A DNA stretch of 11,013 nucleotides, taken from assembly GCA_003525045.1 (NCBI GenBank), contig DQGF01000158.1, positions 4,181 to 15,193 on the forward strand, written 5' to 3'. The position numbers and the translations under genes are program-made. This stretch comes from Pseudomonas sp. Lineage in GTDB: Bacteria > Pseudomonadota > Gammaproteobacteria > Pseudomonadales > Pseudomonadaceae. Positions 108 to 10,309 of the stretch are shown one piece after another; the stretch's first letter is position 1, and each line of letters begins with the position of its first letter. The notes beneath the pieces were generated by a model, which was given only the letters and a program-made list of their open reading frames with translations, was not told where the DNA came from and made no database searches.

Positions 108-677
108 ATGACCGAGATACTGCTTACGCTTATCAGCGCTGCCCTGATCAACAACCTCGTGTTGCACTGGCCGCTGGGCGTCGATCCACTGTTGGGCAGC
201 GAGCGCCGCCAAGTGCATGCGCTGGGCATTGCGACGACAGGCCTGATGCTGATTGTCGGCATGTCGAGCCACGCGCTTTATCATTGGCTGCTGGTTCCTT
301 TGGGGCTGACGTCGCTACGTCTGTTCGTGTTTCTGCCACTGAGCGTGCTGTTGATCGCGCCAATGTTGAAACTGCTTGCGCGGTTGCTTGAGAAGCTTTC
401 GTTCGAGGGCCTCTGGCCGCTGCTGCTGGGTAACGCCGGGGTGCTCGGTCTGGCGCTGATCAACGCTCAGGATGACAAAGGCTTCTTCCACGCCACGGCC
501 TTGAGCCTCGGCGCCGGGCTGGGTTTCTGGCTGGTACTGAGCCTGTTCAGCGACTTGCGCCAGCGCACACTCGATAACGATATCCCCCTGCCCTTTCGCG
601 GCCTGCCGATCGATCTGATCGGCGCCGGACTGATCGCAGTGGCTTTTCTCGGATTCAGCGGGCTGATCAAAACATGA
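108..677 (+). CDS. rnfA: RnfA-like (RsxA-like) membrane subunit lacking the [2Fe-2S] cysteines
   Basis: A 189-residue polytopic inner-membrane protein that aligns along its whole length with RnfA/RsxA (about 193 residues). Shared landmarks are the start [10 protein letters not shown] at 15-16, and the C-terminal PFRG (162-165) followed by GFSGLIK. RnfA normally pairs with RnfE, and together they hold an intramembrane [2Fe-2S] cluster through two cysteines in each subunit. Here both positions are changed: the LGLCP motif reads LGVDP (Asp26) and the TNCAVLG motif reads GNAGVLG (Ala110). The protein contains no cysteine at all. The ATG at 108 is the only plausible start because an in-frame stop lies at 78-80; no clear Shine-Dalgarno precedes it. 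It overlaps rnfB by four bases (ATGA), implying translational coupling. The family assignment is secure; the electron-transfer role is doubtful for this copy. Confidence 0.9.
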
Positions 678-1684
678 GTCTGATTCAACGCATCGACGCC
701 CTTTTGCCGCAGACCCAGTGCGGCAAATGCGGCCACCCCGGATGCAAGCCTTACGCCGAAGGCATCGCCAGCGGCGAGCCGATCAACAAGTGCCCGCCGG
801 GCGGCAACGAAACCATCGAGGCCCTGGCTGAACTGCTGAAGGTACCGGTGCTGGACCTGGACATCAGTCGCGGTTCGGCTCCCGCGCAAATCGCCTATAT
901 CCGCGAGGCCGAGTGCATCGGTTGCACCAAATGCATCCAGGCTTGCCCGGTGGACGCCATCGTCGGTGCAGCCAAACTGATGCACACGGTCATTGTCGAC
1001 GAATGCACCGGTTGCGACCTCTGTGTAGCGCCCTGCCCGGTGGATTGCATCGAGATGCGGCCATTGCCGTTGACCACGGTAGTACCGGTCGTCGGCGGCC
1101 TGGCGTTCACTCTTGATGAGCAACGGGCTCGCGCCGCCAAACGCAATCACGCACGGCGCCGCTTCGAACAGCGCAACGCCCGCTTGCGTCGCGAAGAAGA
1201 ACAGAAACTCGCCGAGCGCCACGCCCGCGCGCAACGTGCCGTACCGCAGCACAGTGACGTGACGCTCGACCCGGTGCAGGCAGCCCTTGAACGCGTCCGC
1301 GCGCAAAAGGCCGCCAATGCCGATGCGGCACTGAAAAAGGCCAGGATCGACCTGGCGATGAGCCGCGCGCAACTGAACAAATCGCTCAAGGCTTTCGGGC
1401 ATCCGCCGACTTTCGAGCAGCAATCGCAACTGATCGTGCTGCAACAGCAGTTCGAGGCCGCCGAGCAAGCCTTGGCCAGACTGGAGGGCGGTGCTGCACC
1501 TGCCCCGGCGCCTGTTGTCCCGGTGAAGAATGCGCAGCTGAATCGGGCGAAGATCCAATTGGCCATGCGCCGTGCCGAACTCAAGAAAGCTCAAGCCAGT
1601 GAAGCATCGGTCGAACATATTGAAGCGTTGGAGCGCGCGGTGATTGAAGCCGAGCACCAGGTGGATGCCCATGCCACTTCTTGA
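674..1684 (+). CDS. rnfB: RnfB-like polyferredoxin without membrane anchor and with a long repeated C-terminal tail
   Basis: A 336-residue iron-sulfur protein. Residues 5-44 match the RnfB Fe-S domain ([14 protein letters not shown], Cys16/19/24/40). Residues 76-128 hold two ferredoxin-type 4Fe-4S motifs (Cys81/84/87/91 and Cys111/114/117/121). All twelve ligands are present. Normal RnfB has about 190 residues and starts with a membrane helix of roughly 25-30 residues. Here translation starts just before the first Fe-S domain, and the upstream in-frame codons inside rnfA encode a polar, Arg/Asp-rich string rather than a helix. After residue 145 comes a charged Arg/Glu/Ala-rich region of about 190 residues, probably helical. 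It contains two related units (about 219-267 and 288-330) sharing the pattern A-[RK]-I-x-L-A-M-x-R-A-x-L-x-K. This resembles the Ala/Lys repeats at the end of RnfC, a subunit missing from this operon. rnfB overlaps rnfD by 14 bases. Confidence 0.88.
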
Positions 1685-2663
1685 ATCGGTCGACGAACGC
1701 CTCCAGCAGGCCATGAAGCTGGTGTTGCTGGCCACCGTGCCGGGGATGCTGGTGTTGTTCTGGTTGTATGGCTGGGGCGTGTTGATCAACCTGATTCTGA
1801 CGGGTGTGACCGCACTGGCGGTTGAATCGGCGGTGTTGCAGCTGCGCAAGCGCCCCATCAAACCGACCTTGAGCGACGGCAGTGCGCTGGTCAGTGCGAC
1901 GCTGTTGGCACTGGCCTTGCCGCCTTATTGCCCGTGGTGGCTGACGGTCAGTGCCGCGGCCTTTGCGCTGTTGTTTGGCAAGCACCTGTATGGCGGCGTC
2001 GGCAAGAATCCGTTCAACCCGGCCATGCTCGGTTTTGCCCTGGTGTTGGTGGCCTTTCCCCAGCAGATGACCCACTGGCCATCGTCCCATGGCATGGACC
2101 TGCTCGGCGGCTTGCGCCAGGTGTTCGGCTTCAGTCTCGGCCAGACGCCGGATGCCTGGGCCCAGGCCACGGCTCTGGACAGCCTGCGGATCAACAAAAG
2201 CCTGACCATGGACGAACTTTTCACCGGCAACCCGGCATTCGGCCACTTCGGCGGACGTGGTATGGAATGGGTCAACCTGGCCTTTCTGGCGGGTGGCGCG
2301 TTTCTGCTGCAACGGCGGGTGTACAGCTGGCATGCGCCGGTCGGCATGCTGGCCAGCCTGTTCGTGATCAGTCTGCTGTGCTGGAACGGCTCCGGCTCCG
2401 ATTCCCATGGTTCACCACTGTTTCATCTGCTCACTGGCGCGAGCATGCTGGGCGCATTCTTTATCGTCACCGAACCGGTGTCCGGCGCCAAAAGCCCCGG
2501 TGCCCGACTGCTGTTCGGCGTGGGCGTGGGACTGCTGACGTATTTGATTCGCACCTGGGGCGGCTATCCGGACGGCGTTGCCTTTGCCGTACTGCTGATG
2601 AACCTGTGCGTACCGGCGCTGGAGCGGATCGCCGTGTCCAGGCAGGAGCGGATGGAGCCATGA
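1671..2663 (+). CDS. rnfD: RnfD-like (RsxD-like) FMN-binding membrane subunit
   Basis: A 330-residue polytopic inner-membrane protein, close to the 352 residues of E. coli RsxD. Diagnostic motifs are [16 protein letters not shown] (104-119), [18 protein letters not shown] (252-269) and [13 protein letters not shown] near the C-terminus. RnfD carries covalent FMN on a threonine attached by ApbE. The equivalent segment here reads [12 protein letters not shown], keeping the Asp and the acceptor Thr (Thr167). I chose the ATG at 1671 because AGGTGG ends six bases upstream; ATGs at 1644 and 1665 are in frame but less well placed. It begins inside the end of rnfB and ends with a four-base overlap (ATGA) on rnfG. 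In a standard operon rnfC would sit between rnfB and rnfD; there is no room for it here. Confidence 0.9.
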
Positions 2664-3271
2664 GTCGAGCGGCGAGCGTTGTGATCCTGATGTTACTGGC
2701 AGGCCTGGGGATTGGCGCGACCTACCTCATTCAGCGCACCAGCGCGCCACACATTGCGGCGCAACAGCGCCTGATCGACAGTCGAAACCTGCTCGACCTG
2801 CTGCCCGCTGACAGTTATGACAATCAGCCGCTGGAACAGCCCCTCAGCCTTGCAAAAACAGAATTGCCTGACAGCACGCTGCTGGGTGGCTACAAGGCGA
2901 CCAAGGCCGGACAACCCAGCGCCGTATTGCTGCGCAGCCAGACCCTGGGCTATGCAGGTTCTATCGAGTTGCTGATCGCCATCGGTGCAAATGGCCAGTT
3001 GCTGGGTGTCAAAACCCTCAATCAAGCGGAAACCCCAGGGCTGGGTGGCAAGATTGCCGACTGGCCCAATGCCTGGCTTCAAGTCTTTGCCGGCAAATCG
3101 CGAGCCGAACCCGGCGATGCGGGCTGGGCGCTGAAAAAAGATCAGGGGACATTCGATCAGATCGCTGGCGCGACCATCACTTCAAGAGCGGTGATCAACG
3201 CCATCCATGACGCGTTGCGCTACTTCGATGAACACTCGCAACAGCTGATCGGGAGTAGCGCCCATGAATAA
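2660..3271 (+). CDS. rnfG: RnfG-like (RsxG-like) periplasmic flavoprotein subunit
   Basis: A 203-residue protein with an N-terminal membrane helix (about residues 6-24) and a periplasmic FMN-binding domain. Length matches RsxG (206 residues). The flavin attachment segment FDQIAGATITSRAV (165-178) is present, with Thr172 as the expected covalent FMN site; the residue three before it is Ala instead of the common Ser/Thr. ETPGLG (124-129), another family hallmark, is also intact. The correct start is the ATG at 2660, overlapping the rnfD stop as ATGA. The frame is open far upstream, but that part is the shadow of rnfD. It overlaps rnfE by eight bases. In normal Rnf the RnfG and RnfD flavins carry electrons on the periplasmic side. 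Confidence 0.9.
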   Translation: MSRAASVVILMLLAGLGIGATYLIQRTSAPHIAAQQRLIDSRNLLDLLPADSYDNQPLEQPLSLAKTELPDSTLLGGYKATKAGQPSAVLLRSQTLGYAGSIELLIAIGANGQLLGVKTLNQAETPGLGGKIADWPNAWLQVFAGKSRAEPGDAGWALKKDQGTFDQIAGATITSRAVINAIHDALRYFDEHSQQLIGSSAHE

Positions 3272-3851
3272 CTCATCGACTCTGCAAAATTCGCTGATGC
3301 TGGCGCCCCTGATCGGCGCGACGGACTCACTGATGAAGGCGCTGGGCGTGTGGCTGATATTCATCGTGGTGAGCAGTGTCTTTGGCATGTGCATGGGCGC
3401 CTTGCGCGATCGACTGATTCCGGCGACACACCTATTAGCCAGCGTCGTGCTGGCGGCCACGCTGACCAGTTGCGCGGAATTTGGGGCGCAAGCCTGGTCG
3501 CTTCAATGGCATCAACACTTGGGGGTGTATGCAGGATTGATTGCCTTGCAATGCGTCGTCATGGACCGGAGCGGTTTTTTCCAGCGTACATGGCGTGATC
3601 GCCTGCGCCTGTGTGGCCTGTTTGGCGCGTTGTTGATGGTTATGGGCCTGCTGCGAGAACTGATCGGCAGCAGCACACTGGGCAGCCACCTGCCGTGGCT
3701 GGCTGGCGCCACGCACCCGGACTGGCAAGGCTGGGTCCTGACCGCCGACGGTGGGTTGCGCCTGGCCATCCTGGTGCCCGGTGGATTCATTCTGCTCGGG
3801 CTTCTGCTCGCCGCCTGGCAGGCCTGGGCCCACCCGACTCCTTCACACTGA
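3264..3851 (+). CDS. rnfE: RnfE-like (RsxE-like) membrane subunit, shortened, one Fe-S cysteine lost
   Basis: A 195-residue polytopic membrane protein related to RsxE (231 residues). Matching segments are the N-terminal NSLMLAPLIGATDSLMKALG (10-29), LGVYAGLIALQC (86-97) and LLRELIGSSTLG (129-140). RnfE normally supplies two cysteines to the intramembrane [2Fe-2S] cluster it shares with RnfA. The first (LGLCPLL motif) is Ala14 here; the second is kept as Cys97. Other cysteines (43, 70, 117) lie elsewhere. The protein is about 35 residues shorter than RsxE and the charged C-terminal tail is missing. The start ATG at 3264 follows GGGAG (3251-3255) and lies inside the end of rnfG. It is the last Rnf-type gene of the operon, 25 bases before nth. 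Confidence 0.85.
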   Translation: MNNSSTLQNSLMLAPLIGATDSLMKALGVWLIFIVVSSVFGMCMGALRDRLIPATHLLASVVLAATLTSCAEFGAQAWSLQWHQHLGVYAGLIALQCVVMDRSGFFQRTWRDRLRLCGLFGALLMVMGLLRELIGSSTLGSHLPWLAGATHPDWQGWVLTADGGLRLAILVPGGFILLGLLLAAWQAWAHPTPSH

Positions 3852-3876: not shown

Positions 3877-4515
3877 ATGAATGCTGCAAAACGCCTGGAA
3901 ATTTTCCGCAGGTTTCACGAAGACAACCCGGAACCGAAGACCGAACTGGCCTACTCGTCGCCGTTCGAATTACTGATCGCCGTGATTCTTTCGGCACAGT
4001 CGACCGATGTCGGCGTCAACAAGGCCACCGCCAAACTCTATCCGGTGGCCAATACGCCGGCCGCGATTCACGCCTTGGGCGTCGAGGGGTTGTCGGAATA
4101 CATCAAGACCATCGGCCTGTTCAACAGCAAAGCGAAAAACGTGATCGAGACCTGTCGTTTGCTGGTGGAGCGCCATGGAGGCGAAGTGCCGCAAACCCGC
4201 GAAGCGCTGGAAGCGCTACCGGGTGTCGGCCGCAAAACGGCCAACGTAGTGCTCAATACCGCATTCCGTCAGCTGACCATGGCGGTGGACACCCATATCT
4301 TCCGGGTCAGCAATCGTACCGGGATTGCTCCGGGCAAGAATGTGGTCGAGGTCGAGATGAAACTGATGAAGTTCGTGCCCAAGGAATACCTGCTCGATTC
4401 CCATCACTGGCTGATCCTCCACGGTCGCTACGTCTGCCTGGCTCGCAAGCCCCGCTGCGGCAGTTGCCGGATTGAAGACCTGTGCGAATACAAGCACAAG
4501 ACCTCGGACGATTGA
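3877..4515 (+). CDS. nth: Endonuclease III, DNA glycosylase/AP lyase
   Basis: A 212-residue protein nearly collinear with E. coli Nth (211 residues). It removes oxidised pyrimidines from DNA and cleaves the resulting abasic site in base excision repair. The helix-hairpin-helix LPGVGRKTANVVL (114-126) carries the catalytic Lys120; the catalytic Asp138 is in VDTHIFRV. The C-terminal [4Fe-4S] cluster ligands Cys187, Cys194, Cys197 and Cys203 are all present, as is LILHGRYVC. The ATG at 3877 gives MNAAKRLEIF, matching the family start; the reading frame extends upstream through rnfE but that part is not homologous. AGGA at 3861-3864 is a distant ribosome-binding site. nth following the rnf/rsx genes is a widely conserved arrangement and nth is probably co-transcribed with them. 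Confidence 0.97.
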   Translation: MNAAKRLEIFRRFHEDNPEPKTELAYSSPFELLIAVILSAQSTDVGVNKATAKLYPVANTPAAIHALGVEGLSEYIKTIGLFNSKAKNVIETCRLLVERHGGEVPQTREALEALPGVGRKTANVVLNTAFRQLTMAVDTHIFRVSNRTGIAPGKNVVEVEMKLMKFVPKEYLLDSHHWLILHGRYVCLARKPRCGSCRIEDLCEYKHKTSDD

Positions 4516-4885: not shown

Positions 4886-5512
4886 TTACACCAAGCCATT
4901 GCGTTGCGCCAATTCGATCAGATCGACCAGGGAGCGCGCATTGAGTTTCAACAACAAGCGAGTCTTGTAAGTACTGACGGTTTTATTGCTGAGGAACATT
5001 CCGTCGGCAATCTCCTTGTTGGTCTTTCCACGGGCCAATTGCTGCAAGACCATCATTTCCCGCCCGGAAAGACGATCGACCATATCGGCCTCACTGGCAT
5101 TGCCCAGACTGGAACGCACAGTGTGCAAGGCTTGATTCGGAAAATAACTGTAGCCTGACAACACAGCCTTTATTGCACTGAGCAATTCGGTCAGATCCTG
5201 TTGTTTGCAGACATAGCCGGCAGCCCCCGACTGCATGCAACGCATAGAGAAATGCCCAGGAGCCTGCGACGTCAAAATCAATACTTTCATTGGCATGGCT
5301 GCCGATGTCAGACGCGCAATGACTTCCAACCCGTCGAGTTTCGGAATTCCAATATCCAGGATTACAATATCGGGCATAAGTTCGCGGGCAAGCTGTAACG
5401 CATCCACGCCATTATCTGTTTCTGCAATGACTTCGTAGCCATGACGTTCCATCAGCATACGTACCGCAAGACGAATGACGGGGTGATCATCCACGATCAG
5501 CACTTTATTCAT
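4886..5512 (-). CDS. NarL/FixJ-type response regulator, orphan
   Basis: A 208-residue two-domain regulator. The receiver domain (1-120) has the acidic pair Asp8-Asp9, the phospho-acceptor Asp53 in VILDIGIPKLDG, the switch Thr81 and the conserved Lys103 in VCKQQD. The C-terminal LuxR-type helix-turn-helix (about 146-208) reads LSGREMMVLQQLARGKTNKEIA and continues FLSNKTVSTYKTRLLLKL. It should bind DNA when phosphorylated. The ATG at 5512 gives MNKVLIVDDHPVIR, the normal family start; a TTG at 5524 would add only four residues. The sequence resembles the BvgA/EvgA/RocA1-like subgroup used in Pseudomonas for adhesion and biofilm control, but I cannot pick a named orthologue. It is not GacA. No sensor kinase is adjacent, so its partner must be encoded elsewhere. 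Confidence 0.92.
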   Translation of the reverse strand: MNKVLIVDDHPVIRLAVRMLMERHGYEVIAETDNGVDALQLARELMPDIVILDIGIPKLDGLEVIARLTSAAMPMKVLILTSQAPGHFSMRCMQSGAAGYVCKQQDLTELLSAIKAVLSGYSYFPNQALHTVRSSLGNASEADMVDRLSGREMMVLQQLARGKTNKEIADGMFLSNKTVSTYKTRLLLKLNARSLVDLIELAQRNGLV

Positions 5513-6006
5513 GGGCAAGTCCAATTTTCGCTGTTCGAATTTTTAGAGCCCGCACAATAGCCTAGTCGTTTCCCCCATGGCATGCCGCCCCCCCCGGCCA
5601 CCTACAGCAAGAGACATTCCCTACACACAATACAGATTATTCTTACAAAAAATCTTCGAATACAATGCATCAGAAAACGTGGCAGCCTCGCGACCTTGCA
5701 TTTTTCAACAGTTTTTTGTATCGATTTGCAACCACAAAATAAAACAAAAAGACTCAGTGACCGGAAATACGGTACACAACGACTGTTGAGCTATCCTGAA
5801 AAGTAACCGATATTTTCCGAGCCAGGACTCATATCAAAACATCGCCCATTTATCATCCCTCTACCCATTCAGCCAAATAACAACGAAGTCTTTATTTAAT
5901 AAAACAGATATACCCGAACCACTAACAAACAGTTACCCTCTGAGTAGCAGACCAAAATACCTCCCGCCAACCCATGAGAAAAGACAAACTTTAATGAGAA
6001 TAAAAC
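5513..6006. other. AT-rich intergenic region with no convincing gene
   Basis: This stretch of about 490 bases is clearly richer in A and T than either flank, with many A runs. It separates the divergent response regulator gene and the gene at 6007. The open frames inside it (for example starting at 5577 and 5582) are short, lack a ribosome-binding site and have an unnatural composition, so I do not call them. It must hold the promoters of both neighbours; one candidate for the right-hand gene is listed separately. A small inverted repeat ACCG/CGGT lies at 5760-5773, inside looser CTCAGT/ACTG pairing. I see no tRNA, CRISPR or mobile element. Confidence 0.6.
5786..5814 (+). promoter_or_regulatory. 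Candidate sigma-70 promoter for the gene at 6007
   Basis: TTGAGC (5786-5791) and GATATT (5809-5814) are separated by exactly 17 bases and match the -35 and -10 consensus at four of six positions each. A transcript from here would have an untranslated leader of about 185 bases. In such AT-rich DNA matches of this quality arise by chance, so the call is tentative. Confidence 0.25.
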
Positions 6007-6702
6007 ATGGAAAAAATCAAACAAAGAATCACCAACCCCATGACACTCATTGCGATCTTCGCAACACTGTCTGAAACTTCAGCAGCTATCTCCCTGCCCT
6101 TCCTCGATGAGGAAGACAGAGATATCTACGTCTGGTTCTTGATCAGCTTTCCTTTTTATTTGCTCTTTCTTTTCTTTGCCACACTCAACTTCAATTATCG
6201 GTCGCTTTACGCCCCCTCCGATTTTGAAAAAGGCGAGCACTTCATAAAAGCCATGAAAAACGCCGAGGGCCCGGAAAAGAGCGACTCCAGGATGACATCC
6301 AAAAACTTGGCCCGTCATCAATCGATGATTGATCCCCGATCCACTCACCCTCCCTGTTACGCACAGGACCCATCAGAAACGGATCGGCAGACCCCGGCGG
6401 AGCACTACGTCCGCCTGCCGGAGCGCCTCAAAGACCTGTACATCGTTGATGTTCGCGGGATGAGCCAAAAAGTCGAAATGGGCGCCTCGCTGGAGAGGAT
6501 TCAAAAAGAACAGGGAAAACCTGCGCATGCCATCGTGTTCATCACATGTGCTGAATCGGAGAGACTACTGAAAGAGAGCACAATCAAACATTCAAAAAAC
6601 GCAAAGAAACACAGTGCATCGCTCTATGTTGCTTACAATTTGAATTCAAATGGCGTGACGGTCATTGATCAAACGTATCCATTGACGAACAACAGTCAAT
6701 AG
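6007..6702 (+). CDS. Uncharacterised protein with two membrane segments and a cytoplasmic C-terminal domain
   Basis: A 231-residue protein I do not recognise by function. Two hydrophobic segments (about 12-32 and 40-60) form a membrane hairpin, with the acidic loop DEEDRD between them. Directly after comes NFNYRSLYAPSDF (61-73), which I have the impression of seeing in other bacterial proteins with two N-terminal membrane helices. Residues 75-133 are polar and probably disordered. Residues 134-227 look like a small alpha/beta domain (LYIVDVRGM, AIVFITCAE, SLYVAYNLN). With no signal peptide and a basic N-terminus, both ends are probably cytoplasmic. The weak site GAGAA (5996-6000) precedes the ATG. 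The gene is AT-rich with AAA, ATC and AAC common, unlike its neighbours, which suggests horizontal origin. It converges with argG. A membrane-anchored sensor or defence-type effector is conceivable, but nothing in the sequence demonstrates it. Confidence 0.75.
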   Translation: MEKIKQRITNPMTLIAIFATLSETSAAISLPFLDEEDRDIYVWFLISFPFYLLFLFFATLNFNYRSLYAPSDFEKGEHFIKAMKNAEGPEKSDSRMTSKNLARHQSMIDPRSTHPPCYAQDPSETDRQTPAEHYVRLPERLKDLYIVDVRGMSQKVEMGASLERIQKEQGKPAHAIVFITCAESERLLKESTIKHSKNAKKHSASLYVAYNLNSNGVTVIDQTYPLTNNSQ

Positions 6703-6787
6703 CGCTTGAAGACCGGTCATAGGGTAGATAGGAAGGTAATCAGAACACTGCAGCGCACTGCCAGGCAGAACACCCCCCTTTCAGATT

Positions 6788-6814
6788 GGCGGCCTTGTCA
6801 ACGACAAGGCCACC
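6788..6814 (-). terminator. Strong hairpin downstream of argG, possible terminator without T run
   Basis: GGCCTTGTC (6791-6799) and GACAAGGCC (6803-6811) are a perfect nine-base inverted repeat around a three-base loop. Read on the minus strand the stem extends to twelve pairs with one G-T wobble. It lies about 37 bases beyond the argG stop, between two convergent genes. No T run follows on either strand, so it may be a transcript-end stabilising or transcription-blocking hairpin rather than a classical terminator. Confidence 0.5.
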
Positions 6815-6850
6815 CATCCATTTCGCTCATCCACTACAGTGTCAAAGGTC

Positions 6851-8068
<1,218 letters not shown>

Positions 8069-8120
8069 GCCATTACTCCACGGGGTTCTACGGAAAGCCG
8101 TCAAGTCTACCGGTCATGCA

Positions 8121-8185
8121 GAATAATTTACAGAGGCGCGACAGCTTATGACGACGAAGCGACAGATTATGTCGAGCGAGCGACG
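8121..8185 (-). promoter_or_regulatory. ArgR operator of three tandem half-sites upstream of argG
   Basis: On the minus strand, TGTCGC occurs at 8143-8138 and 8164-8159, and CGTCGC (one mismatch) at 8185-8180; each is exactly 21 bases from the next. The Pseudomonas ArgR half-site, as I remember it, is TGTCGC-N8-AA-N5, also 21 bases and arranged in tandem. The argG-proximal copy fits fully, with AA at 8129-8128. AT-rich -10-like sequences (TAAATT 8130-8125, TATTCT 8126-8121) lie just downstream, so bound ArgR would cover the -35 region and probably represses argG when arginine is present. The same DNA is the spacer after the motY stop. Confidence 0.7.
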
Positions 8186-8197
8186 ACTATGGCCGAT

Positions 8198-9103
8198 TCA
8201 GGACGTCTTCGCCGTGGCCGATGCAGTTGCCTGAGGCGCCGGCGGCTCGATGGGCGCGACCCGCGCGAGCTGCACAATGACCCGACGGTTCTTCGCCCGG
8301 TTGGCAGCATTGGTGTTGGGCGCCAACGGATAACGTTCGCCGTGGAAGCGCAGGGTAATCTGCGATTCCTGAACACCGTTGGCCTTGAAGAACTCCATGA
8401 CCGCCAGGGCCCGGCGCCGTGACAGGTCACGGTTGGTCAAGCGGTTGCCGCTGTTGTCGGAGTGGCCATCGAGCTCGACGTGATTGACTGTCGGGTCGGC
8501 CTTCATGAAGTCCAGCATCACTTGCAATTGCGCCTTGGCCTGCGCGTCGAGATCGAGCCCTTCGCCGGGGAAGCCGATCTCGGATTGCCTGATCTGCTGG
8601 AAATTCTTCGGCAGCAGTTTCGCCACACAACCCTGGTAATCGTTAAAGGCCTTGCTGAACTTGACCGGCAACAGACGCACTTCCGAGACCAGGCCGTCGC
8701 CCGAATAATGCCGCACCACCGGACTGCGACCGTCCATCAAGCCACTGAGCAATCGCCCGGCCTGAACCTGCGAACTGTTGAACAGCACATTGCCGCTGCC
8801 GATTCGCACGGAACCGAGGTTGATATCGCCACGCCCCGGCTGCCAAGGCGCTGCGGCCGCCAGCAACGTCGCCGATCCGCCACCGATCATCGCGTTGTAG
8901 GCCTTCAGACGAAACGTCGCCTGCTCACCGGCGCGGCGCACGAACTCACCCGATCCGAAATCGGTGATCGGTTGCGTCAGGCGGCACTCGAACTTGTCCC
9001 CTTCCACCGTCCACTCAATGCTCTCCATACGGGTCTGGAAAGTGAGCGCCATCGCGGGAAGGCTGGCAAACACACTGAGCAGGGCTAAATAACGCTGGCG
9101 CAC
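8198..9103 (-). CDS. motY: MotY, periplasmic flagellar stator-associated protein with OmpA-like domain
   Basis: A 301-residue exported protein. Residues 1-21 form a signal peptide (MRQRYLALLSVFASLPAMA and on). The N-terminal domain (about 22-175) has two cysteines, Cys40 and Cys159, spaced as in MotY proteins where they form a disulfide. An OmpA-like peptidoglycan-binding domain follows (208-282) with VELDGHSDNSGNR (Asp216), LSRRRA (Arg231) and a final NRR motif. MotY sits around the basal body in the periplasm and supports stator units for swimming; P. aeruginosa PA3526, also between argG and pyrC, is MotY. The start is taken as GTG at 9103, because GGAG lies six bases upstream; a GTG at 9115 would disturb the signal peptide. 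A Pro/Ala/Thr-rich tail ends the protein. No motA/motB genes are nearby. Confidence 0.88.
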   Translation of the reverse strand: MRQRYLALLSVFASLPAMALTFQTRMESIEWTVEGDKFECRLTQPITDFGSGEFVRRAGEQATFRLKAYNAMIGGGSATLLAAAAPWQPGRGDINLGSVRIGSGNVLFNSSQVQAGRLLSGLMDGRSPVVRHYSGDGLVSEVRLLPVKFSKAFNDYQGCVAKLLPKNFQQIRQSEIGFPGEGLDLDAQAKAQLQVMLDFMKADPTVNHVELDGHSDNSGNRLTNRDLSRRRALAVMEFFKANGVQESQITLRFHGERYPLAPNTNAANRAKNRRVIVQLARVAPIEPPAPQATASATAKTS

Positions 9104-9168
9104 GGGAGGCTCCACTGGCTTCTACAACAAAAAGACCGACACACAGATGTTCACGGCATACCTGTTGG

Positions 9169-9195
9169 ATATCGGAAGCTTCCCGCAAAACTTGA
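9169..9195 (-). promoter_or_regulatory. Sigma-28 (FliA) type promoter for motY
   Basis: On the minus strand TCAAGTTT (9195-9188), an 11-base spacer and TCCGATAT (9176-9169) closely follow the flagellar sigma-28 consensus TAAAGTTT-N11-GCCGATAA: seven of eight and six of eight matches with exact spacing. Transcription would start near 9162, giving a leader of about 58 bases before the GTG at 9103. The match fits the flagellar role of motY and would place it among late flagellar genes. Confidence 0.7.
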
Positions 9196-9262
9196 TAGCG
9201 AGTGCCTGGAAGAGTCTTTTCCGGTAGCATTCCCCAGAGTTTGACCCGCCTGGAATCCCCTC

Positions 9263-10309
9263 ATGTCCGACCGCCTGACCCTGCTGCGTCCCGACGACTG
9301 GCACATTCATCTTCGCGATGGTGCCGTGTTGACCAATACCGTTGCGGATGTCGCGCGCACCTTTGGTCGCGCCATCATCATGCCCAACCTGGTACCTCCG
9401 GTGCGTAACGCCGCTGAAGCCGACAGCTATCGCCAGCGGATTCTCGCTGCACGCCCGGCTGGCAGTCGCTTCGAACCGTTGATGGTCCTTTACCTGACCG
9501 ACCGCACCCAGCCCGAAGAAATTCGTGAGGCCAAGGCCCGCGGCTTCATTCACGCCGCCAAGCTTTATCCGGCCGGCGCGACCACCAATTCGGACTCTGG
9601 CGTCACCAGCATCGACAAGATCTTCCCTGCACTCGAGGCCATGGCCGAAGTCGGGATGCCCTTGCTGGTTCACGGTGAAGTCACCCGTGGCGATGTCGAT
9701 GTATTCGACCGCGAAAAACTCTTCATCGATGAGCACTTGCGTCGTGTGGTCGAGCGTTTCCCGACGCTCAAAGTGGTGTTCGAACACATCACCACCACCG
9801 ACGCCGTGCAGTTCGTCAATGAGGCCTCGGCCAACGTCGGCGCGACCATCACCGCCCATCACCTGTTGTACAACCGTAACCATATGTTGGTGGGCGGGAT
9901 TCGGCCGCACTTCTACTGCCTGCCGATTCTCAAGCGCAATACGCATCAGGAAGCGTTGCTCGACGCCGCCACCAGCGGCAGCGACAAGTTCTTCCTTGGC
10001 ACCGACTCGGCGCCCCATGCCCAGCACGCCAAGGAAGCCGCGTGCGGCTGTGCCGGTTGCTACACCGCTTATGCCGCAATCGAGATGTATGCCGAAGCCT
10101 TCGAACAGCGCAACGCGCTGGACAAGCTCGAAGCCTTCGCCAGCGTCAATGGCCCGCGCTTCTATGGCCTGCCCGTGAACACCGATCGCATCACCCTGGT
10201 CCGCGACGAGTGGACCGCCCCAACCAGCCTGCCCTTTGGCGAGCTGACCGTTATCCCGCTGCGCGCCGGTGAAAAACTGCGCTGGCGCCTGCTGGAGGAA
10301 CACGCGTGA
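9263..10309 (+). CDS. pyrC: Dihydroorotase, class II
   Basis: A 348-residue zinc enzyme that closes carbamoyl aspartate to dihydroorotate in pyrimidine synthesis. It is the catalytically complete short type: the HxH metal motif is [10 protein letters not shown] (His14, His16), Lys100 is the carboxylated bridging lysine in HAAKLYPAG, His137 and His175 are further metal ligands, and Asp248 in LGTDSAPH is the catalytic aspartate. The ATG at 9263 gives [16 protein letters not shown] as in other pseudomonads; the ribosome-binding site is weak. It is divergent from motY, sharing a 159-base intergenic region, and overlaps rnt by four bases, so the two are probably co-translated. Confidence 0.97.

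Follow-up and report, generated by a model that had tools for sequence, protein, structure and literature searches.

What can an rnf operon still do once RnfC and most of the ligands of its intramembrane iron-sulfur cluster are gone? This question is raised by a stretch of 11,013 nucleotides from Pseudomonas sp. (assembly GCA_003525045.1, contig DQGF01000158.1, positions 4,181 to 15,193 of the forward strand), here called the window at its full length, which carries such an operon. The known Rnf route ends at nicotinamide adenine dinucleotide (NAD+). Passages of PMC12174285 describe the route as starting at RnfB and passing by way of the membrane cluster to the flavin mononucleotide (FMN) of RnfG, the FMN and riboflavin of RnfD and then RnfC. 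Because the cluster and RnfC are lost here, this route is cut at both, leaving a loop without entry and exit. The conserved flavin sites and the co-occurrence of ApbE lead us to favour a different, flavin-only electron path. We give about an even chance to a cluster-free flavin core, in which RnfA, RnfD, RnfG and RnfE would use flavins to pass electrons in one direction only, by way of RnfD and RnfG. The operon lies on the plus strand in the order rnfA-rnfB-rnfD-rnfG-rnfE, followed by nth:

108..677, + strand: rnfA, 189 amino acids (aa), zero cysteines; D26 (codon 183-185) and A110 (codon 435-437) stand at two ligand sites
674..1684, + strand: rnfB, 336 aa; iron-sulfur core at residues 16-125 (719-1048) with all 13 conserved cysteines; without the N-terminal membrane helix
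1322..1669, + strand: C-terminal part of rnfB (residues 217-332), which shares homology with the RnfC C-terminal tail
1671..2663, + strand: rnfD, 330 aa, above the NCBIfam rnfD cut-off; flavin-attachment Thr167 retained (2169-2171)
2660..3271, + strand: rnfG, 203 aa, above the NCBIfam rnfG cut-off; flavin-attachment motif AGAT with Thr172 retained (3173-3175)
3264..3851, + strand: rnfE, 195 aa; A14 (3303-3305) at a ligand site, C97 (3552-3554) the sole remaining ligand, C70 (3471-3473) conserved too
3880..4515, + strand: nth (endonuclease III), whose position beside the operon identifies the nth-linked rnf locus

The operon encodes homologues of the four membrane core subunits (A, D, G and E), and all five rnf products have Pfam and NCBIfam matches. 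At the curated NCBIfam subfamily cut-offs RnfB, RnfD and RnfG pass, and RnfA (115 bits to TIGR01943, cut-off 229) and RnfE (69.6 bits to TIGR01948, cut-off 213) fail. With regard to the lost ligands, the cluster site of the Rnf structure is made up of RnfA Cys25 and Cys113 with RnfE Cys26 and Cys109, which PMC9588780 calls invariant. We set the ligand columns by phmmer alignments to solved chains and by multiple alignments with 27 reference clusters that bear the cysteines: 16 nth-linked operons of Pseudomonas, 10 from other families of the order and one of nif type. RnfA D26 and A110 and RnfE A14 (codons GAT, GCC and GCG) align to three of the four ligand positions, and RnfE C97 (TGC) is the fourth. 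This bears out an earlier note on this DNA, made from its letters alone, which had claimed that three of the four ligands are gone and that RnfA has no cysteine at all. We read 63 reduced clusters, namely 48 of the form A-B-D-G-E (window included) and 15 of the form A-D-G-E. None of them has Cys at any of the three lost sites, and all 27 references have Cys at all four. Two doubts that the same note had raised can be set aside by these counts: sequencing error at the ligand codons is ruled out by 0/63 against 27/27, and so are shifted cysteines, for a Cys lies within 5 residues of the three sites in just 7, 2 and 2 of the 63 clusters and in none of these places in the window.

A second set gave the same division. 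It comprised 80 named GTDB loci, the best 80 of 586, and shared at least six genomes with the first set. An RnfC core was found in 24 of these loci and not in 54, two further loci being truncated by contig ends. Ligand cysteines of RnfA numbered zero in 54/54 loci without the RnfC core, where RnfE had at most one; with the core, both RnfA cysteines were present in 24/24 and both RnfE cysteines in 23/24, the exception (L236) having a gap in the N-terminal ligand column of RnfE. AlphaFold single-chain models of the window RnfA (predicted local distance difference test, pLDDT, 71; predicted template modelling score, pTM, 0.66) and RnfE (pLDDT 72, pTM 0.62) match the RnfA/NqrE and RnfE/NqrD folds (template modelling score about 0.6-0.7).

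The earlier note had also reported rnfC as missing. It is not in the window operon, where no rnfC stands between rnfB and rnfD, and no rnfC-family match above the cut-off was found in the window genome (G000, of Pseudomonas type), an assembly 79.7% complete in 610 contigs. Since this genome is incomplete, we argue the absence from near-complete relatives instead, and they agree. The catalytic core is indeed gone, but a clean deletion of rnfC is rejected because the RnfC tail persists on RnfB in 46 of the 48 clusters that have RnfB. The window RnfB tail is 45% identical to the RnfC tail over 116 residues; in a relative, RnfB of L062 matches RnfC of L078 over 188 residues at 51% identity (two-sequence comparison, E 2e-40), and this match ends no more than three residues from the RnfC end. 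Of the 48 tails, 46 outscore all 140 controls made by local shuffling of RnfC (20 from each of 7). Among the 46 matching tails, 23 stop no more than 20 residues short of the RnfC end, and no tail matches the RnfC core; RnfB of L140 and L145 have shorter tails without significant RnfC match. The NCBIfam RsxC model also hits the window RnfB, weakly (31 bits, cut-off 345) and over profile positions 365-556 of 556, the ferredoxin part included. These matches indicate that the RnfC catalytic core is lost and its C-terminal tail kept as a fusion to RnfB, the simplest history being an in-frame deletion that would have joined rnfB to the end of rnfC.

RnfB itself was remodelled at its other end. No 19-residue stretch with mean hydropathy of at least 1.6 was found upstream of the first iron-sulfur motif in 48/48 reduced clusters, some of which have fewer than 19 residues there. 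The helix is present in 15/17 Pseudomonas references with a looser motif and 17/17 with a stricter one, and in 4/4 outgroups scored, the other six being unscored. Among the matches listed, the rnfB profile match starts at 14-34 in reduced or stand-alone RnfB versus 1-3 in Cys-bearing operons. All 13 conserved cysteines are present in 48/48.

A supply of RnfC in trans is unlikely, because no rnfC above the cut-off was found in 107 of the 113 reduced genomes in our sample of 199 genomes of the genus. The other six have rnfC elsewhere, in a nif-type Rnf (G022) or as a separate RnfC class (G021, G057, G072, G093 and G103). This separate class occurs in 9/199 genomes of the genus: in G057, by coordinates in G021, G072, G082, G103 and G180, and by rnfC match in G060, G093 and G185. 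In the G057 locus L147, of which six frames were scanned, positions 6092-9700 hold a separate cluster with at least apbE, a full RnfC (RnfC_N, Complex1_51K, Fer4) and an RnfD-like protein.

To place the reduced clusters, we built a maximum-likelihood tree of RnfD plus RnfG with 90 rows (quick search, no bootstrap). All 63 reduced clusters form one clade with a support of 100 in the Shimodaira-Hasegawa-like approximate likelihood ratio test (SH-aLRT) and a stem branch of 0.56. The clade is nested in a group of 79 rows (SH-aLRT 89), the other 16 being the Cys-bearing operons beside nth from this genus; inside the group the tree leaves the order open. Moreover, nth adjoins the cluster in 63/63 reduced clusters. 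The cysteine losses and the absence of the RnfC core are therefore shared by one clade, which is what the earlier note had looked for in a distinct subtype.

In the genus sample, where classes were assigned by PF02508 and rnfC profile scores, 24 genomes are Cys-bearing with rnfC, 113 are reduced, 3 have an NQR-type pair only and 59 have no RnfA/RnfE pair; none has both forms. Cysteines were read in 16 of the 24 and in 63 of the 113; for three more reduced genomes (G022, G028 and G054) the reading covered gene content. Among the RnfA/RnfE matches listed for the 24 genomes with a Cys-bearing nth-type operon, all are of the strong class. The earlier note had thought of a paralogous complex. We reject this, since the window genome has one RnfA/RnfE pair, the clade falls among the Cys-bearing nth-linked operons of the genus and no genome of the sample carries both forms. 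These comparisons indicate that the window operon is the orthologous nth-linked rnf operon reduced in place, and a distinct subtype.

By locus labels, reduced forms occur in P. fluorescens, protegens, chlororaphis, brassicacearum, umsongensis, cichorii, viridiflava, mosselii, entomophila, alkylphenolica and otitidis, and Cys-bearing forms in Stutzerimonas, P. indoloxydans, P. chengduensis, P. guineae, P. abyssi and Halopseudomonas. Among 120 RnfA relatives listed, the organism-named ones are Pseudomonas except for one compost metagenome. A search of 274 genomes of the class with the RnfA alignment A1 found nothing above 225 bits outside the genus (window 288), though A1 includes four Cys-bearing rows, which makes it a weak test. 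In an order-wide PF02508 search (244 genomes, 112 genera), weak-class best-hit pairs were found in the window genus only (G000, G083), and genomes with a normal and a reduced form would escape it. Four genomes from other families of the order (G230, G334, G342 and G395) had best PF02508 hits of just 1e-32 to 1e-34 and may be partial assemblies or other divergent forms. Searches of the open PMC literature listed no paper that describes, for Pseudomonas, an Rnf lacking RnfC or the cysteines of the cluster, subscription journals lying outside this scope. A one-residue deletion in RnfD is given as a marker of the Straminea clade in PMC10797017.

The subunits of the reduced complex have not been kept equally. 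The flavin-attachment site of RnfD (window T167) is Thr in 62/63 reduced clusters and Ser in one, and that of RnfG (T172) is Thr in 61/63 and Ser in two. Of the residues invariant in the 27 references, the mean fraction retained is 0.83 for RnfD, 0.85 for RnfB (48 sequences), 0.66 for RnfG, 0.41 for RnfA and 0.31 for RnfE. Open frames are of near-normal length in 63/63 (A 175-223, D 314-344, G 188-208 and E 163-221 aa). Ratios of nonsynonymous to synonymous substitution (dN/dS) were computed pairwise by the Nei-Gojobori method for pairs with RnfD dS below 0.8, with dS often near that limit. The medians for Cys-bearing and A-B-D-G-E clusters (86 and 80 pairs) are 0.05 and 0.33 for A, 0.07 and 0.22 for B, 0.24 and 0.26 for D, 0.30 and 0.31 for G, 0.18 and 0.48 for E, and 0.09 and 0.045 for nth; the A-D-G-E clusters (58 pairs) give A 0.35, D 0.23, G 0.28, E 0.42 and nth 0.04. 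Thus dN/dS was maintained in RnfD and RnfG and not in RnfA and RnfE, which have lost much of their constraint. ApbE is present in 113/113 reduced genomes, including 16/16 without RnfB, and in 24/24 Cys-bearing ones, versus 9/49 with rnfB alone and 1/10 with neither (10/59 without A/D/E).

From this pattern we propose how the reduced complex may work. The comparisons show that in one Pseudomonas ancestor the nth-linked operon lost the RnfC catalytic core, the RnfB membrane helix and three of the four RnfA/RnfE cysteines. RnfA and RnfE remain as a scaffold for a flavin half, made of RnfD and RnfG, whose covalent-FMN threonines are kept. Electrons would most likely enter at the cytoplasmic side of RnfD, at the riboflavin freed by the loss of RnfC, and then pass from this riboflavin to the RnfD FMN, the RnfG FMN and a putative periplasmic acceptor. 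The donor may be RnfB where present, or another cytoplasmic donor. Such a complex is probably, we infer, neither a ferredoxin:NAD+ oxidoreductase nor an ion pump of known type. The fuller claim, that a free-standing RnfA-D-G-E works without any iron-sulfur cluster, in several lineages without RnfB and RnfC, and carries flavin-only electrons across or along the membrane, we hold at slightly under even chances.

Several facts weigh against this proposal. Constraint on all five rnf genes is below that on nth, and dN relative to nth is raised for every subunit in reduced forms (D from 1.6 to 4.8 and G from 3.6 to 8.4 times nth). Single pairs reach a dN/dS of 0.90 for A and 1.16 for E. Constraint has therefore not stayed at its former level. 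ApbE is a flavin transferase that serves other proteins too, and its co-occurrence is a raw count over related genomes without phylogenetic correction. Moreover, the core must be dispensable, since 59/199 genomes of the genus lack A/D/E.

The operon could instead be decaying, with little or no function after the loss of RnfC and the cluster, and heading for loss. The raised dN/dS of A and E with its extreme pairs, the repeated loss of RnfB and the genomes without any core would fit such an end. Against it stand the near-normal open frames in all 63 clusters, the almost invariant flavin threonines, the dN/dS of RnfD and RnfG near Cys-bearing values, the depth of the clade as given by its stem branch, and the low dN/dS between the window and its nearest relative L077 (A 0.13, D 0.12, G 0.17, E 0.23); we consider decay unlikely. 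A metal centre with other ligands, through which electrons would still cross the membrane between RnfA and RnfE, seems to us quite improbable. Its candidate ligands are RnfA Asp26 and RnfE Cys97 and Cys70, and they are indeed frequent: C97, the C109 equivalent, is retained in 59/63 reduced clusters, C70 in 57/63 and both in 54/63, and Asp26 in 43/63. However, position 26 is not Asp in 12/15 clusters without RnfB; all 63 have Ala, Gly, Val, Thr or Leu at RnfA site 110; C70 stands in 24/27 Cys-bearing references, where it is not among the four ligands; and constraint on A and E has dropped. RnfA residues 22-31, the loop of the lost ligand, have pLDDT below 50, so the single-chain models are silent on substitute ligands at this site. 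RnfA position 26 is not invariant; where it is not Asp, it is Glu or Gln in 11 of 20 clusters. Parts of PMC12174285 describe the dimer as alternating between inward and outward access.

The operon might also chiefly serve RnfB as a soluble polyferredoxin beside nth, with A-D-G-E as passengers. RnfB would suit this role in that its 13 conserved cysteines are intact, and it often stands without the core: 49 of the 59 genomes without A/D/E retain rnfB above the cut-off, and in 11/11 such loci read it adjoins nth without A/D/G/E and has an RnfC-like tail. As the tails of stand-alone RnfB match RnfC tails, the fusion is common also to genomes now without the core. One stand-alone rnfB match (G195:C10:117039-117455) is flagged with one TGA in its reported frame, and the nth-adjacent open frame in L255 was read as it stands. 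The converse is seen as well and argues against a role centred on RnfB, which we judge distinctly unlikely: rnfB is absent from 15/63 reduced clusters read, where A, D, G and E remain, and above the cut-off it is missing in 16/113 reduced genomes (15 of the 16 read). Within the clade, at least four changes of rnfB are forced by the starred branches of the tree, with parsimony giving five, and these are most simply at least four losses. Gene content thus indicates that RnfB is dispensable to the clade.

Among known systems, the nearest is the nth-linked proteobacterial Rnf (RnfABCDGE; RsxABCDGE in E. coli), which shares with the window the order A-B-D-G-E-nth, the families PF02508, PF03116 and PF04205, the RnfB iron-sulfur core and the flavin threonines of RnfD and RnfG. 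The window operon differs in having no RnfC core (NADH/FMN and 4Fe-4S domains), no RnfB helix and only one of the four cluster cysteines, and some of its relatives are also without RnfB. In the Na+-translocating NADH:quinone oxidoreductase (Na+-NQR, NqrABCDEF), NqrB, C, D and E are homologous to RnfD, G, E and A, whereas NqrF and NqrA match none of the five operon genes in a search limited to the operon. NQR holds one [2Fe-2S] between NqrD and NqrE according to passages of PMC12174285. In NQR/RNF-like systems, an RnfD-type flavoprotein is thought to move electrons one way out of the cytoplasm, as part of PMC8238504 puts it. There the NqrB/RnfD domain is fused to a NAD-binding NqrF domain, unlike the window RnfD, which is PF03116 only and is accompanied by RnfA, G and E. 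The window RnfB also resembles the helix-less RnfB models PRK06991 (250 bits, cut-off 281, residues 2-271) and PRK08764 (184 bits, cut-off 220) of NCBIfam, and differs from these in lying inside an rnf operon with a tail related to that of RnfC. RnfB of this kind often stands beside nth outside Pseudomonas.

Many Pseudomonas appear to use this stripped-down Rnf. If the cluster-free flavin core is real, Rnf would fall into two evolutionarily separable halves, one of flavins and one of iron-sulfur centres, and the genus would offer natural cluster-free variants for probing the role of the intramembrane cluster. With 113/199 reduced genomes that keep the flavin half and ApbE, it may serve as a natural test of the contributions of the cluster, RnfB and RnfC. 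Neither ferredoxin:NAD+ oxidoreduction nor ion pumping should be ascribed to Pseudomonas genes that bear the label 'electron transport complex protein RnfA'.

Elsewhere in the window, a 231-aa open frame at 6007-6702 on the plus strand, with no NCBIfam or Pfam match, adjoins an opposite-strand response regulator gene (4889-5524).

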